Virus record (IMG/VR): IMGVR_UViG_3300047557_004250
Location: 1-31,388 of that record
Source: a virus
DNA: 31,388 bases
Reading direction: 5' to 3' (one strand)
Below the pieces are notes generated by a model that saw only the letters and a program-made list of their open reading frames with translations, was not told the origin of the DNA and did no database searches. The stretch's first letter is position 1. The number at the start of each line of letters is the position of its first letter. The position numbers and the translations under genes were made by a program. Of this stretch, positions 3,817-7,983 are shown piece after piece.

Positions 3817-3987
3817 ATGAGACTAATAAGACAGTGCTGTGGCGGTGTATGCCACGCAGGAAAAGACTGCGAAGAAAGAGCCTACCTGGAATATCGTAAA
3901 CGCCATGGTAAGCATTGGTTTATTATGATGATGACTAGCCCCTTTATTACTTTTCTACTAGGACTATTGATTGGAAGTATGTTATGA
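3817..3987 (+). CDS. Cys-rich small membrane protein, 56 aa
   Basis: The ATG at 3817 has GGGAAGG six bases upstream. The N-terminal half has four cysteines in a tight cluster (CCGGVCHAGKDC), which could bind a metal or form disulfides, followed by a basic linker and one C-terminal hydrophobic helix (FITFLLGLLIGSML). The layout suggests a cytoplasmic Cys-rich head on a C-terminal membrane anchor. It ends in an ATGA overlap with the phosphatase-like gene. Unknown function. Confidence 0.5.
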   Translation: MRLIRQCCGGVCHAGKDCEERAYLEYRKRHGKHWFIMMMTSPFITFLLGLLIGSML

Positions 3988-4376
3988 CATATGGAGTTCA
4001 TTCTAATAGCTACCAGGGAGATTATAAACGTGTTCTTTGTGTTTGCTCTGCCGGCATACTGCGTTCTGCAACTGCTGCTCACGTCCTTTGCCAATATCCA
4101 TACGATTTCAATACTAGAAATGTTGGGACGGCTCCCTATGCACTTATTCCTCTGACCGAAGATCTAATTCAATGGGCAGATGAAATAGTCTGTATGGAAT
4201 CTGAGCACGAAATTGTTGTAAGACAAAAGATGATTGAATTTGCATTCAACAAACCAATCATCACCCTTCACATTGAAGATATCTACGAATACAGAAACCC
4301 CAAGCTAGTGAAACTGATTCAAATGAAATACAACGAATATCAAGCAAGCCTACGACCTTACGACGATAACTTTTGA
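3984..4376 (+). CDS. Low-molecular-weight protein tyrosine phosphatase-like protein
   Basis: The 130-residue protein has the C-X5-R-S phosphate-binding loop of LMW tyrosine phosphatases near its N-terminus (Cys21 to Arg27, VCSAGILRSATA). The rest follows the small bacterial predicted-phosphatase group (COG4551 type): a VGTAP segment, then LIQWADEIVCMES, and near the C-terminus an EDIYEYRNPKLVKLI segment holding the candidate general acid Asp. It would hydrolyse phosphotyrosine or a related phospho-ester in the cytoplasm. The substrate is unknown; in a phage it could modify host signalling or a nucleotide-linked modification. It is coupled to the gene before it by an ATGA overlap. Confidence 0.75.
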   Translation: MTYGVHSNSYQGDYKRVLCVCSAGILRSATAAHVLCQYPYDFNTRNVGTAPYALIPLTEDLIQWADEIVCMESEHEIVVRQKMIEFAFNKPIITLHIEDIYEYRNPKLVKLIQMKYNEYQASLRPYDDNF

Positions 4377-4383
4377 GGATATT

Positions 4384-4851
4384 ATGCTACTAGAACATGC
4401 AGAACGTGAAATGGATTTGATGGGGCTCACCGATGATGGTGAAATGAACGGAATGATGCGAAAGCACATCCTTCATATGGTAAAAGAGTTTGCAGCTGAA
4501 GGTCATTCTGGATTTTCTGCTAGCTACGCAATTCAACTGCTCGAGAAACTTTTAAAGTTCGAACCAATCACTCCTCTCACTGGTGAAGATTGGGAATGGG
4601 TTGATGTCTCCGAACAATCTGGAAAACCAATGTGGCAGAATGTGAGATGTGGAAGAGTATTTAAGGATGAAGATGGTGCTTATGATATTGAAGGAAGAGT
4701 TTTTTGGAATTGGCAGACTCTAGAAGATGGTGAAAAGTATAAATCATTCTATACATCACGTGATAGCCGTGTGTACATTACATTTCCTTATGTTCCAGAA
4801 ACAGTTTACGTGGAGGTAAACGATGATGAACAAGAGAGCAATCTACATTGA
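4384..4851 (+). CDS. Conserved phage protein of unknown function, 155 aa
   Basis: The N-terminal third is helical and Met-rich; the C-terminal two thirds contain PITPLTGEDWEWVDVSE, WQNVRCGRVFKD, a YDIEGRVFW segment and YTSRDSRVYITFPYVP. I recognise this as a widespread phage family without known function. The start ATG is preceded by GAGGAT. The end overlaps the next gene by 29 bases, whose own ribosome binding site (GGAGG, 4811-4815) lies inside this gene. Confidence 0.65.
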   Translation: MLLEHAEREMDLMGLTDDGEMNGMMRKHILHMVKEFAAEGHSGFSASYAIQLLEKLLKFEPITPLTGEDWEWVDVSEQSGKPMWQNVRCGRVFKDEDGAYDIEGRVFWNWQTLEDGEKYKSFYTSRDSRVYITFPYVPETVYVEVNDDEQESNLH

Positions 4852-5408: not shown

Positions 5409-6368
5409 ATGGCTCATCTAGTCGAAACAATGGCATACGCAGGCGCAACCCCATGGCATGGTCTTGGTAAGCCTGTTCCTTCTGACCTTTCACCACAACA
5501 AATGCTCGAGGCAGCTGGTCTTGACTGGCAAGTTCAGAAGATTCCTACGTTTGCCAACGTGTTTGATAAGCAAGTCTACACTGGTAAGGATGCTCTTGTG
5601 CGCTCAACTGATGGTAAAATCCTTGATGTTGTATCGCAAGACTGGAATCCTATGCAAAATCACGAAGCATTTGAGTTCTTCAACGACTTCGTATGCTCTG
5701 GTGACATGGAAATGCACACAGCTGGTTCATTGAAAAATGGTCAGATCGTGTGGGCACTGGCTAAGATCAAGGAGAGCTTTGATGTATTCAACGGTGACAC
5801 TGTGGAGTCATATCTACTTTTCACTCTACCTCACAAGTTTGGTCAGTCTATTGACGTTCGTTTCACTCCGATACGCGTGGTCTGCAACAATACTCTTACG
5901 CTGTCACTCAATACTAAATCAGATAATATGGTGAAAGTATCCCATCGCCGTGTATTTGATGGTGACCAAGTGAAGCAGACGTTGGGTATCGCTTCTGACA
6001 AGCTCGCTAAGTACAAAGAGATGGCTAAGTTCTTGGGCAGCAAGAAGTACAAGGAAGAGACTGTGAAAGAATACTTCAGCCGTATCTTCCCTGTCAATGC
6101 TTATGGTCGTTCTAAGAATGAAGAGACCAAAGTTAAGAAAGAACTATCCAAGTCTGCAGAACTGGCTTTGGAAGCTCTCTATGAGCAGCCAGGTGCCAAG
6201 TTTGCTGAGGGATCTTGGTGGCAAGCATTCAATGCTGTTACGTTCTTGACTGACCACATTATTGGTCGTACACAAGAAGGTCGTCTGACATCGGCTTGGT
6301 ATGGTCCTAACAAGGCTTTGAAGGTGAAGGCACTTGAGACCGCTGTCGAGATGGCGGAGGTAGCATGA
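5409..6368 (+). CDS. DUF932 phage/plasmid-like protein
   Basis: The 319-residue product opens with ETMAYAGATPWHGLGKPVP and contains a VSQDWNPMQN segment and VVCNNTLTLSL, which are typical of the DUF932 (TIGR03299) phage/plasmid-like family. The family's biochemical role is not established; genes of this kind are common in phages and plasmids. It starts at an ATG with TAAGGAG eight bases upstream, after a 64-bp AT-rich leader (5345-5408) in which no strong promoter stands out. The stop overlaps the next ATG (ATGA), so the entericidin-like gene may be co-translated. Confidence 0.8.
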   Translation: MAHLVETMAYAGATPWHGLGKPVPSDLSPQQMLEAAGLDWQVQKIPTFANVFDKQVYTGKDALVRSTDGKILDVVSQDWNPMQNHEAFEFFNDFVCSGDMEMHTAGSLKNGQIVWALAKIKESFDVFNGDTVESYLLFTLPHKFGQSIDVRFTPIRVVCNNTLTLSLNTKSDNMVKVSHRRVFDGDQVKQTLGIASDKLAKYKEMAKFLGSKKYKEETVKEYFSRIFPVNAYGRSKNEETKVKKELSKSAELALEALYEQPGAKFAEGSWWQAFNAVTFLTDHIIGRTQEGRLTSAWYGPNKALKVKALETAVEMAEVA

Positions 6369-6487
6369 AGAAATTAGCATCAGTAGTTCTGATGCTTTTG
6401 ATGACTGGATGCGGCACCCTTGGTGGTGCTGTATCTGGTGCAGGTAAAGATCTGTCAAAAGCAGGTGAATGGATTAGCAATAAATAA
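6365..6487 (+). CDS. Entericidin-like small lipoprotein, 40 aa
   Basis: The ATG overlaps the DUF932 stop (ATGA). A short basic N-terminus and hydrophobic stretch (MKKLASVVLMLLMTGC) end in a lipobox, LMTGC, so Cys16 should be lipidated after cleavage. The mature part is only 25 residues and has the Gly-rich spacing of entericidins (GAVSGAGKDLSKAGEWI). Entericidins are small envelope lipoproteins known in E. coli as a toxin-antidote pair (EcnB/EcnA); only one is seen here. A role in membrane stress or superinfection exclusion is speculation. Confidence 0.7.
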   Translation: MKKLASVVLMLLMTGCGTLGGAVSGAGKDLSKAGEWISNK

Positions 6488-6500
6488 TGTTTTTACCCAG

Positions 6501-6536
6501 TTGTATTTTAGTCATAACTTACTAGATACTGTCTAG
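6501..6536 (+). promoter_or_regulatory. Putative pqqA promoter with palindrome
   Basis: TTGTAT (6501-6506) and TAGATA (6523-6528) are 16 bases apart and could be a -35/-10 pair. The -10 sits inside a perfect inverted repeat, CTAGA (6522-6526), TACTG, TCTAG (6532-6536), which could be an operator or an RNA hairpin at the start of the transcript. The gap between the upstream stop (6487) and the pqqA start (6568) is large for this phage, which supports a separate transcript. Confidence 0.35.
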
Positions 6537-6567
6537 CCAATTGTGGCTTTTACAATAGGAGATAAAA

Positions 6568-6642
6568 ATGGAGTGGACTACACCAACAGCAAATGATATG
6601 CGTTTTGGTTTTGAAATCACAATGTATATCGCAAATCGTTAA
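6568..6642 (+). CDS. pqqA: PqqA, PQQ precursor peptide (24 aa)
   Basis: The 24-residue frame matches PqqA in length and sequence: it begins MEWTTP, has RFGFEITMY, and ends IANR. The Glu and Tyr that PqqE cross-links and that become the PQQ skeleton are present at positions 16 and 20 in the E-x3-Y motif. PqqA is the ribosomal peptide substrate of the PqqD/PqqE/PqqF/PqqC pathway for pyrroloquinoline quinone, cofactor of periplasmic alcohol and sugar dehydrogenases. No pqqB-F is seen in the window, so the peptide would feed host enzymes. A strong ribosome binding site (AGGAG, 6557-6561) lies six bases upstream, and a terminator follows at 6670. Too short for routine gene callers. Confidence 0.9.
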   Translation: MEWTTPTANDMRFGFEITMYIANR

Positions 6643-6643
6643 T

Positions 6644-6670
6644 CAACTATCGATCAACACTAGATAGTTG
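6644..6670 (+). other. Hairpin between pqqA stop and terminator
   Basis: CAACTATC (6644-6651) is the reverse complement of GATAGTTG (6663-6670), giving an 8-bp stem with an 11-base loop two bases after the pqqA stop. Its last base is shared with the terminator stem, so the two hairpins stack or compete. It may protect the 3' end of the short message. Confidence 0.5.
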
Positions 6671-6695
6671 AGCCCCTCACGGGGCTCATTTTTTT
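6670..6695 (+). terminator. Rho-independent terminator after pqqA
   Basis: GAGCCCC (6670-6676), loop TCAC, GGGGCTC (6681-6687), followed by ATTTTTTT. Seven perfect GC-rich base pairs and a T run make this a strong terminator. It separates the pqqA transcript from rubrerythrin, whose ribosome binding site (GGAG) follows the T run at once. Confidence 0.85.
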
Positions 6696-6704
6696 GGAGA
6701 TATT

Positions 6705-7139
6705 ATGAATTTAAAAGGCACTAAAACTGAGTTGAATCTCAAAGAGGCATTTGCTGGTGAATCACAAGCAAACCGTCGTTATCTATATTTCGCAAACATG
6801 GCTGACATCGAAGGATCTCCTGAAGTTGCTGCTGTGTTCCGTCATACAGCTGAAGGTGAGACTGGCCATGCTCATGGTCACATGGAATACCTTTTGAACG
6901 GTGCTGCTGGTGATCCTGCAACTGGTATGGAAGTTAAGAATGTTGCACAGGCACTGGAGTCAGCTATTGAAGGTGAAACACACGAGTATACTGATATGTA
7001 CCCTGGTATGGCGAAGACTGCTCGTGATGAAGGGTTTGATGAAATTGCTGACTGGTTTGAAACTCTTGCTAAAGCAGAGCGTAGCCATGCTGGTAAGTTC
7101 AAGAAAACTCTCGACGCTTATAACGCTGGAGTACAATGA
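6705..7139 (+). CDS. Rubrerythrin (ferritin-like diiron domain only)
   Basis: The 144-residue protein has the rubrerythrin four-helix diiron pattern: Glu19 ([10 protein letters not shown]), Glu52 with His55 (EGETGH), Glu91/Glu94 (EGETHEY) and Glu125 with His128 (KAERSH). The C-terminal rubredoxin-like domain of classical rubrerythrins is absent, so an outside electron donor is needed. Rubrerythrins reduce hydrogen peroxide in the cytoplasm. The gene has GGAG six to nine bases upstream, follows the pqqA terminator directly, and ends in an ATGA overlap with a small membrane gene. With the Bfd-like protein downstream it suggests a peroxide or iron-handling role during infection. Confidence 0.9.
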
Positions 7140-7288: not shown

Positions 7289-7501
7289 ATGATTGTTTGT
7301 GTTTGCAGAAACATCAAAGAATCAGACTTCGATACGTCAGATGAACTATTGAGTAGACTCAATGATGTTGACATTTGCTGTGGACATTGTGTAGAGTATT
7401 GTGCGCAGCAAAAAAGAACACACTATTCATCTAGAAGTGGCACAGGCGACGACGAGACTAAGATACCGCTGGTCGGTTACGTAGGGGTGGATCCTACATA
7501 G
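7289..7501 (+). CDS. Bfd-like [2Fe-2S] protein with odd C-terminus
   Basis: The product opens MIVCVCRNI, the CxC start of bacterioferritin-associated ferredoxin, and has a CxxC (CGHC, Cys31/Cys34) about 24 residues later, the second half of the [2Fe-2S] binding site. Further Cys lie at 30 and 38. Bfd reduces ferric iron stored in bacterioferritin and so releases it. Only about the first 45 residues fit the family; the last 25 or so look like readthrough sequence leading into the tmRNA gene, whose acceptor RNA begins near the stop codon. The ATG has AGGAG eight bases upstream. It could pass electrons to the rubrerythrin, an inference from position. Confidence 0.65.
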   Translation: MIVCVCRNIKESDFDTSDELLSRLNDVDICCGHCVEYCAQQKRTHYSSRSGTGDDETKIPLVGYVGVDPT

Positions 7502-7575
7502 TGTGTTAGATATTGTTGTATGAAGCAAACCAAAAGGTGTTCTGGACGCGGGTTCGACTCCCGCCTGGTCCACCA
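7502..7575 (+). ncRNA. ssrA: tmRNA acceptor piece
   Basis: The T arm is GCGGG (7548-7552), a seven-base TTCGACT loop and CCCGC (7560-7564), preceded by GGAC as in E. coli tmRNA (GGACGCGGG). The 3' acceptor strand and CCA end at 7575. The 5' end of the mature piece is not visible; I place it just after the Bfd-like stop codon. Confidence 0.8.
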
Positions 7576-7663
7576 GAAGTGTTGTTTAGGGTGATATGTA
7601 AGAGTTTAACAAAGCTCTGAGGATTGGAATTCCCGACCTGTGAACAACAGGACACTTCTGATG

Positions 7664-7836
7664 GGCCAGACATGGTTTCGACAGGGCAAGGAGTAGGAGA
7701 GTGGACAACACGTCAGGCGATCGACGTAAATGAAGCAAAATAGTAAACGCAAATGACGAGCGTTACGCTCTAGCAGCTTAAATTGCTAGATGGGGTTTAG
7801 CCGGCTGTCCTTATTACCCAATCAGCCGGCACCGAT
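7664..7836 (+). ncRNA. ssrA: tmRNA coding piece
   Basis: The piece begins GGGCCAG and has the D-arm analogue GGTTTCGACAGGG. ACGTC (7710-7714) and GACGT (7723-7727) form a stem of pseudoknot 1. The conserved AATAGT precedes the tag frame, and TAGCA/TGCTA pair around the stop. After it lies an H-type pseudoknot: TGGG (7791-7794) with CCCA (7817-7820), interleaved with GCCGGCTG (7800-7807) and CAGCCGGC (7823-7830). The 3' end near 7836 is estimated. Confidence 0.85.
7749..7781 (+). other. tmRNA tag frame, ANDERYALAA
   Basis: The resume codon is GCA at 7749 and the stop is TAA at 7779-7781. The ten encoded residues end in ALAA, the signal for ClpXP-type proteolysis. Tags of this form are, from memory, typical of beta-proteobacteria, and differ from the E. 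coli tag at two positions. Confidence 0.92.
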
Positions 7837-7843
7837 TTCAAAT

Positions 7844-7851
7844 TATAAATA
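7844..7851 (+). promoter_or_regulatory. T4-type late promoter TATAAATA
   Basis: The octamer TATAAATA is an exact match to the T4 late promoter -10 recognised by gp55-directed polymerase with gp33 as coactivator. The phage encodes a gp33-like protein at 8496, so late promoters are expected. It lies between the tmRNA gene and the lysin at 7984, a typical late gene. Confidence 0.55.
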
Positions 7852-7983
7852 ACTTTATCTACAAGAGGGCCCACGGCTCAAAATATTATGTTTTTTTGAT
7901 AATTATTGCGTTTTGACTCTTAATCCGGATAACTGAAAGTTTCACCTCTATCCTTCATTTCATTAATCAAAGAGGAAGTTAAC

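Follow-up and report, generated by a model that had tools for sequence, protein, structure and literature searches.

Viral pqqA is not new, having already been in print in the available parts of two studies (PMC7678222 and PMC13188868). In Lake Baikal, the T4-like virus population VP_266 was described with a PqqA and a predicted Methylophilaceae host (Coutinho et al. 2020, PMC7678222), and a 2026 survey of reservoir sediment reported virus-encoded pqqA, pqqD, and pqqE (PMC13188868). PqqA is the precursor of PQQ, in which PqqE links a Glu and a Tyr, and PqqB-D may be reusable; one methylotroph strain had five pqqA copies, and added PqqA was converted to PQQ in a cell-free system (available part of PMC9851590). 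In Acetobacter, PQQ rose by 29% with pqqAB and eightfold with the whole operon (accessible text of PMC7936290), so that PqqA need not be limiting. Term searches showed that PqqA was absent from the papers on Melnitz, MEP301, MEP401/402, and Venkman, that PQQ appeared in the Melnitz paper as a medium component only (1 nM), and that pqq was absent from a survey of viral methane metabolism (PMC10904782). No report of pqqA in isolated methylophages was seen among the open-licence papers listed, and further reports may exist.

The window, which is the whole stretch of 31,388 nucleotides analysed here, comes from an IMG/VR virus contig (record IMGVR_UViG_3300047557_004250). Its proteins included gp32, a gp33-like coactivator, gp59, tail tube, and baseplate proteins, all of T4 type, and the phage is T4-like. 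The features at and around its pqqA gene were as follows.

6510..6555, + strand: structured pqqA leader, fold of -11.5 kcal/mol, z -2.5
about 6535-6548, + strand: small inverted repeat AGCCA-AUUG-UGGCU in the pqqA leader, recognised by eye
6557..6562, + strand: ribosome binding site AGGAGA, 5 nt 5' of the ATG, read from the sequence
6568..6642, + strand: pqqA, encoding the 24-residue PQQ precursor peptide MEWTTPTANDMRFGFEITMYIANR with Glu16 and Tyr20
6645..6669, + strand: stem-loop 3' of the pqqA stop codon, directly ahead of the terminator, from folding
6669..6695, + strand: intrinsic terminator with an 8 bp stem, a 4 nt loop, and a T run (stem-loop 6669-6688)

Translation of the window gave a pqqA frame from the ATG at 6568 to the TAA at 6640-6642. 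Profile searches with the peptide gave 37.9 bits for Pfam PF08042 (cut-off 21.1, E 1.7e-9) and 39.3 bits for the NCBIfam equivalog TIGR02107 (cut-off 20, E 3.9e-10), and a PDB search with it produced no match. The Glu-x3-Tyr pair that becomes PQQ is present as E16 and Y20. PqqA peptides are about 23-29 residues long, and the window peptide, at 24 residues and with a start codon and AGGAGA, fits this size. A preliminary description made from the sequence alone had claimed a complete, phage-encoded, 24-residue PqqA with the E-x3-Y motif and had proposed a comparison with the PqqA families; the residues proved to be as described, both curated cut-offs were exceeded, and the phage origin holds on the IMG/VR virus record and the T4-type genes of the window. 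Because the frame is kept at the same place in close relatives, and in view of its pN/pS (below), the gene is not a chance frame. It is a real, functional-looking phage PqqA, and as such a host-type metabolic gene inside a phage genome, as for a phage auxiliary metabolic gene.

The window peptide resembles chromosomal PqqA (PF08042, TIGR02107) in length, sequence, Glu16/Tyr20, and ribosome site, but it differs in lying in a phage with no pqqB-E alongside. A position beside pqqBCDE is usual for pqqA in hosts but not defining for PqqA; the window pqqA is not beside pqqBCDE, and no PqqE was found in the window. With Baikal VP_266 the window shares a PqqA in a T4-like phage, for which the same role was proposed there; methanol dehydrogenase was reported in VP_139 and VP_266, whereas none of the 65 records searched here had a PQQ alcohol dehydrogenase, and the host of the window is more likely a non-methylotroph, unlike the predicted Methylophilaceae host of the Baikal population, from which it is set apart by description (available part of PMC7678222). 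The reservoir-sediment survey is alike in having pqqA among its virus-encoded genes but read the gene as phosphate-solubilising, the two cases being likened by description only (available part of PMC13188868). Methylophilales phage Melnitz (MZ577097) is also T4-like and carries pqqA, with a permuted tmRNA according to its paper; unlike that of the window, its pqqA is situated before a tRNA-Leu, upstream of gp5-type genes and not beside rubrerythrin, and it lies under an antisense ORF call.

The strong ribosome site and the strong terminator that had been claimed on either side of the gene were both recovered, as AGGAGA at 6557-6562 and as the stem-loop at 6669-6688 with its T run. The fold of 6643-6694 reached -21.1 kcal/mol (z -7.05), and none of 200 shuffles was equally stable; the stem-loop and terminator set pqqA apart from the rubrerythrin gene at 6705. 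A scan of 6300-6800 showed no sigma-70-like promoter on the + strand upstream of pqqA, and there was no exact TATAAT in the 100 nt ahead of the ATG in the window. Across the phage pqqA genes, TATAAT preceded 39 of 87 (5.85 expected), an SD-like sequence was found in all distinct leaders (93/93), and stems of at least 6 bp occurred in 68 of 93, against a mean of 39.9 in shuffles and 318/646 for the leaders of other ORFs. The mean z of leader structure was -1.49 for phage pqqA (92 leaders), -1.43 for host pqqA (124), and -0.59 for other ORFs (120). Since host pqqA leaders are equally structured, the stem-loop is not a phage invention; leader hairpins are a tendency of pqqA in phages and hosts alike, with a putative function only. 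The T4 late promoter TATAAATA stood ahead of few phage pqqA genes (5 of 87, 0.75 expected). Palindromic stems such as ACATACT-AATGC-AGTATGT were also observed, with 34 motif matches upstream of pqqA and 17 elsewhere, the latter nearly all the same sites on the opposite strand; examples of leaders with TATAAT or palindromic stems are L063, L066-L070, L036, L041, and L049.

Conservation was followed through the neighbouring genes. A contig of 78,724 bases (L327, also L405), almost identical to the window, carried the same PqqA peptide at the same place, with an upstream protein 99% identical, a rubrerythrin 100% identical, and a base change downstream. For the upstream DUF932 gene, pqqA lay within 600 nt in seven of the nine closest relatives (86-99% identity), being absent from this distance in L332 and L335, and in 10 of the 80 relatives kept; for rubrerythrin, 11 of the 12 nearest loci (93-100%) had it directly upstream, the remaining one beginning 65 nt ahead of the gene, and 24 of the 80 relatives kept had it within the stretch examined, these DUF932 and rubrerythrin counts not being independent because some loci are near-duplicates. 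Among gp32 relatives, pqqA was found in one of 80 loci (51 of them extending 3 kb upstream) and in one of 34 whole records, namely that of the L018 contig; the three closest (74-75%) were uninformative, as two begin at gp32 and the third just before the tmRNA. The SAR11 phage Mosig, which is related to Melnitz and has rubrerythrin and a permuted tmRNA in common with the window, contained no PqqA in its whole genome and is one contrast only. Within the window's own clade the gene is stable; across the wider T4-like family it is patchy. Lack of conservation in related phages had been named in the preliminary description as evidence against the gene; in the closest clade (7/9) the gene proved to be conserved, with patchy presence further out. 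Variants of PqqA with the residue before Tyr changed (EITLY, EVTAY), which lie outside the pattern of the first scan, were seen in L411, L414-L416, L423, and L428.

A tblastn search against 50,697 phage records returned 12 that matched PqqA. Two 'Acinetobacter phage MD-2021a' records (CAKLQF020000010.1 and CAKLQH020000055.1; L010 and L011) were rejected, since pqqB, C, D, and E follow pqqA in these contigs, which look like mislabelled bacterial assemblies; one MD-2021a peptide remains as a row of alignment A1, which was the query of the IMG/VR scan. The other ten were Melnitz (4 records), P19250A, Venkman, MEP301, MEP401, MEP402, and ctXG6705; the last is an uncultured phage from a spring, and the nine others are records of methylophage isolates. 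At pqqA, five of the ten had no annotation, five had 'hypothetical protein', and none had PqqA, which agrees with the earlier remark that the gene is easily missed by gene finders; in the three checked (Melnitz, Melnitz-1, and ctXG6705), the 'hypothetical protein' was an antisense ORF. It is not claimable that all methylophages carry pqqA, since NCBI taxonomy names 18 species as Methylophilales or Methylophilaceae phage and the matches cover nine of them. A whole-record search gave PqqA over the cut-off in 23 of 24 chosen records, of which 23 had been picked for having PqqA and Mosig was added as the contrast.

The IMG/VR scan, whose pattern fixes the residues [FI]GFE[VI]TM, revealed at least 591 confirmed PqqA-coding stretches of at least 600 found; together with the seven of nine closest upstream-gene relatives, this is the positive outcome of the search of related phages and viromes that had been suggested beforehand. 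The 80 loci kept were the best matches of the at least 591 and are a biased sample. Host contamination was rejected as their source, as no pqqB-E lay near pqqA in any of the 80, a check that covered the best 80 of at least 591 confirmed stretches; no PqqE over the cut-off in 46 of 46 IMG/VR records also speaks against contamination. Two scans for other PqqA types gave 10 stretches and 1 stretch, and two of the 10 (L243 and L244) were rejected as spurious on reading. A second viral PqqA type, MKWSKPTYQKLRLGFEVTMYFKQV, was observed in six contigs (L236-L238, L241, L242, and L245), an enterobacterial type in L239 and L240, close to where the stretch examined ends, and an alphaproteobacterial type in L246. 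A plasmid search gave 21 records with a match, and the 10 listed were all replicons from Burkholderia or Paraburkholderia, with sizes of 0.7 to 3.2 Mb.

Many different neighbours of pqqA were seen among 88 loci. Twelve loci had the gene inside the T4 replication block, with regA on one side and hsp20 on the other, 5 further ones had it downstream of hsp20, and a member of the rubrerythrin family lay within 2.6 kb in 14 of the 88. Arrays of 21-28 tRNA genes stood next to it in five loci (L015, L020, L021, L034, and L049), some copies lay among ERF or YqaJ genes in recombination modules, and a contig of 356 kb with a match to gp23 (L086) contained another. Grouping by shared neighbour families gave 27 groups when at least two had to be shared and 6 groups when one was enough. 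Such a number of genomic contexts suggests repeated gain, and is most simply read as acquisition of pqqA by phages more than once, although shuffling of gene order within lineages occurs as well. On one pqqA-bearing phage contig (L027:3517-3592), ARAGORN predicted a tRNA with anticodon CTA (named tRNA-Pyl), a possible TAG suppressor.

A complete ATG-to-stop pqqA frame was present in 80 of 80 kept loci, in the window, and in 7 phage records. The residues W, P, R, E, and Y did not vary among the 77 distinct sequences, although the scan pattern itself imposes the E. The pN/pS was 0.22 over the 77 distinct pqqA sequences and 0.34 without the pattern-forced codons (75 distinct), against 0.47 (one antisense frame) to 2.39 for the other frames of the same DNA, all of these figures being rough because the sequences are related by descent, were picked for similarity, and are near synonymous saturation. 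The gene is kept by selection in related phages, with patchy presence further out.

Comparison of the window peptide with host genomes, also proposed in the preliminary description, showed 21 of 24 residues identical to Thauera PqqA, the closest among the host matches listed, 20 of 24 to Limnobacter, Hydrogenophaga, and Comamonadaceae, and 13-16 of 23 to Methylophilaceae, the host set consisting of the pattern-search matches listed. The isolated methylophages except Melnitz had PqqA of Methylophilaceae type (tail VMNK or VLNK), and that of P19250A was identical to the commonest host-set peptide (at least 31 occurrences among the matches listed). As for tmRNA, Methylophilaceae-type genomes had one-piece molecules with the tag ANDETYALAA or ANDETYSLAA, two Comamonadaceae had one-piece molecules with ANDERFALAA, Thauera had a permuted one with ANDERFAVAA, a pond Burkholderiales had a permuted one with a tag that differs from the window's, and the marine betaproteobacterium TMED22 had the window's tag, ANDERYALAA, on a one-piece molecule. 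The host could not be fixed by a DNA search with the window tmRNA, whose matches, in 13 of 25 genomes, were all short. Judged by residue identity, the window PqqA is of the Burkholderiales/Rhodocyclales type rather than the Methylophilaceae type, so the host need not be a methylotroph. The 24-residue peptide and the tmRNA make a Burkholderiales- or Rhodocyclales-type host the more likely one; a methylotroph host for the window is less likely, being disfavoured by peptide identity and tmRNA tag. The earlier emphasis on methanol accordingly fits the isolated methylophages and suits the window less (21/24 for Thauera versus 13-16/23 for Methylophilaceae). Methylophaga-type genomes (L103, L128, L158, and L163) had two or three pqqA copies within 8 kb, a host-side counterpart of an extra pqqA.

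None of the 65 records searched in two sets (50 and 15, window included) had a PqqE over the cut-off, and none had a PQQ alcohol dehydrogenase, absences that are not proof because many virus records are fragments. Of the 65 records, 62 were shown to carry pqqA, including 12 of the 15; the stretches examined of L418, L425, and L448 show none. Weak matches to the PqqE model occurred in 6 of 50 and 1 of 15 records, the best scoring 25.2 bits where the cut-off is 381; they resemble ordinary radical SAM proteins, since the model, for which there was no positive control with a true PqqE, also matched weakly in 14 of 14 control genomes. With Acinetobacter queries in tblastn, pqqB-E were found in 0 of 87 PqqA-bearing viral loci and, as the positive control, in 39 of 119 host blocks, which were at most 8 kb long and not centred. 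The PQQ alcohol dehydrogenase model matched in 14 of 14 host-type genomes, 9 of them over the cut-off. As neither PqqE (0/65 records) nor pqqB-E (0/87 loci) was found in the phages, the peptide would depend on host enzymes, in line with the original suggestion that the host brings the other pqq genes.

The phage gene is probably an auxiliary metabolic gene, with which a T4-like phage carries a copy of the host's PqqA and feeds the host's own PQQ pathway. In the infected cell, phage-made PqqA would be presented by host PqqD, host PqqE would join Glu16 to Tyr20, and a host protease with PqqB and PqqC would complete PQQ. One PqqA would be consumed per PQQ and the enzymes would be reused, so that pqqA would run out first when host transcription fails; a phage would then have reason to carry these 75 bases and no other pqq gene. 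With PQQ in greater supply, periplasmic quinoprotein dehydrogenases would stay active, namely methanol dehydrogenases in methylotroph hosts and, in the Burkholderiales-type host that the window points to, other PQQ-dependent dehydrogenases of alcohols or sugars. This reading is favoured by the identity of P19250A PqqA to the commonest host-set peptide, by the match of 14 of 14 host-type genomes to the PQQ alcohol dehydrogenase model, and by the precedents in PMC9851590; against it stand the patchiness in the wider family, the 29% gain from pqqAB in Acetobacter, the 0 of 65 records with a PQQ alcohol dehydrogenase, in contrast to the Baikal report, and the viral pqqD and pqqE of the reservoir survey. 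In cyanophages, psbA lets the phage supply the fastest-used part of the host energy system; phage pqqA, too, would supply the fastest-used part, but PqqA is a consumed cofactor precursor and not a protein subunit.

Host pqqA might instead have recombined into phage genomes as a passenger with little or no effect, as its patchy presence in the wider family and its location beside tRNA arrays in several phages would allow. We consider this unlikely, given the purifying selection outside the pattern-forced codons (the rough pN/pS of 0.34), the SD-like sites in 93 of 93 leaders, the many genomic contexts, and the nine methylophage isolate records from several lineages. A peptide without its enzymes could also compete as a decoy that ties up PqqD/PqqE and halts host PQQ synthesis, but phage peptides match host PqqA over the full length, to identity in P19250A, and both Glu and Tyr are kept where decoy lineages might lose one (an argument weakened by the scan pattern, which fixed Glu); a decoy is thus distinctly improbable.

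It is very improbable that a PqqA-like peptide and a phage enzyme make some other radical-SAM-modified product, a signal or inhibitor, for although weak PqqE-model matches were obtained in 6 of 50 and 1 of 15 records, the best reached 25.2 bits against 381, the same was seen in 14 of 14 controls, and most records had none. Least probable of all is superinfection exclusion, in which exported PQQ would close the outer-membrane importer PqqU and so deny rival phages their receptor; PQQ prevents a phage that targets PqqU from infecting E. coli, but in the available part of PMC12124388 this is known solely for E. coli phages with added PQQ. Supply of the precursor to the host pathway is preferred.

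With rather less assurance, at slightly better than even chances, pqqA can be regarded as repeatedly acquired, selected, and largely overlooked in phages of PQQ-making betaproteobacteria, both methylotroph and non-methylotroph, often as a small unit of its own with a -10-like TATAAT, a 5' stem-loop, and a strong ribosome site. If so, precursor supply would be a general bottleneck of infection and would connect phages with the oxidation of alcohol and methanol in lakes and seas. Because genes of 23-24 codons are easily skipped, pqqA may be undercounted and could be one of the commoner metabolic genes in phages of PQQ-using bacteria. If phage PqqA raises PQQ, phages would directly drive alcohol and methanol oxidation in natural waters, and cofactor feeding may be a common phage means of sustaining host energy supply during infection. 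Carriage of only the used-up part would be a testable rule for host genes taken by phages, and cultured pairs such as Melnitz and OM43 strain H5P1 make the idea testable. The breadth and missing annotation of phage pqqA are of more interest than the single case of the window.

Other genes of the window were observed on the + strand. The rubrerythrin gene downstream of pqqA lies at 6705-7139 (96.1 bits). Near it, a 70-residue ORF (7289-7501) with CxC and CCxxC resembles a Bfd-type [2Fe-2S] ferredoxin by eye, and a 130-residue ORF (3984-4376) has the stretch CSAGILRSATA, which by eye resembles the loop of a low-molecular-weight protein tyrosine phosphatase; neither ORF produced a Pfam, PHROG, or PDB match. 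A homologue of Tad3, the phage inhibitor of type I Thoeris defence, is encoded at 4384-4851 (PF25185, 133.9 bits, cut-off 27). A permuted tmRNA with the tag ANDERYALAA lies at 7462-7872, and the relatives of the window have permuted tmRNAs nearby with varying tags, such as ANDSEYALAA, ANDEQFALAA, and ANDELFLAAA.
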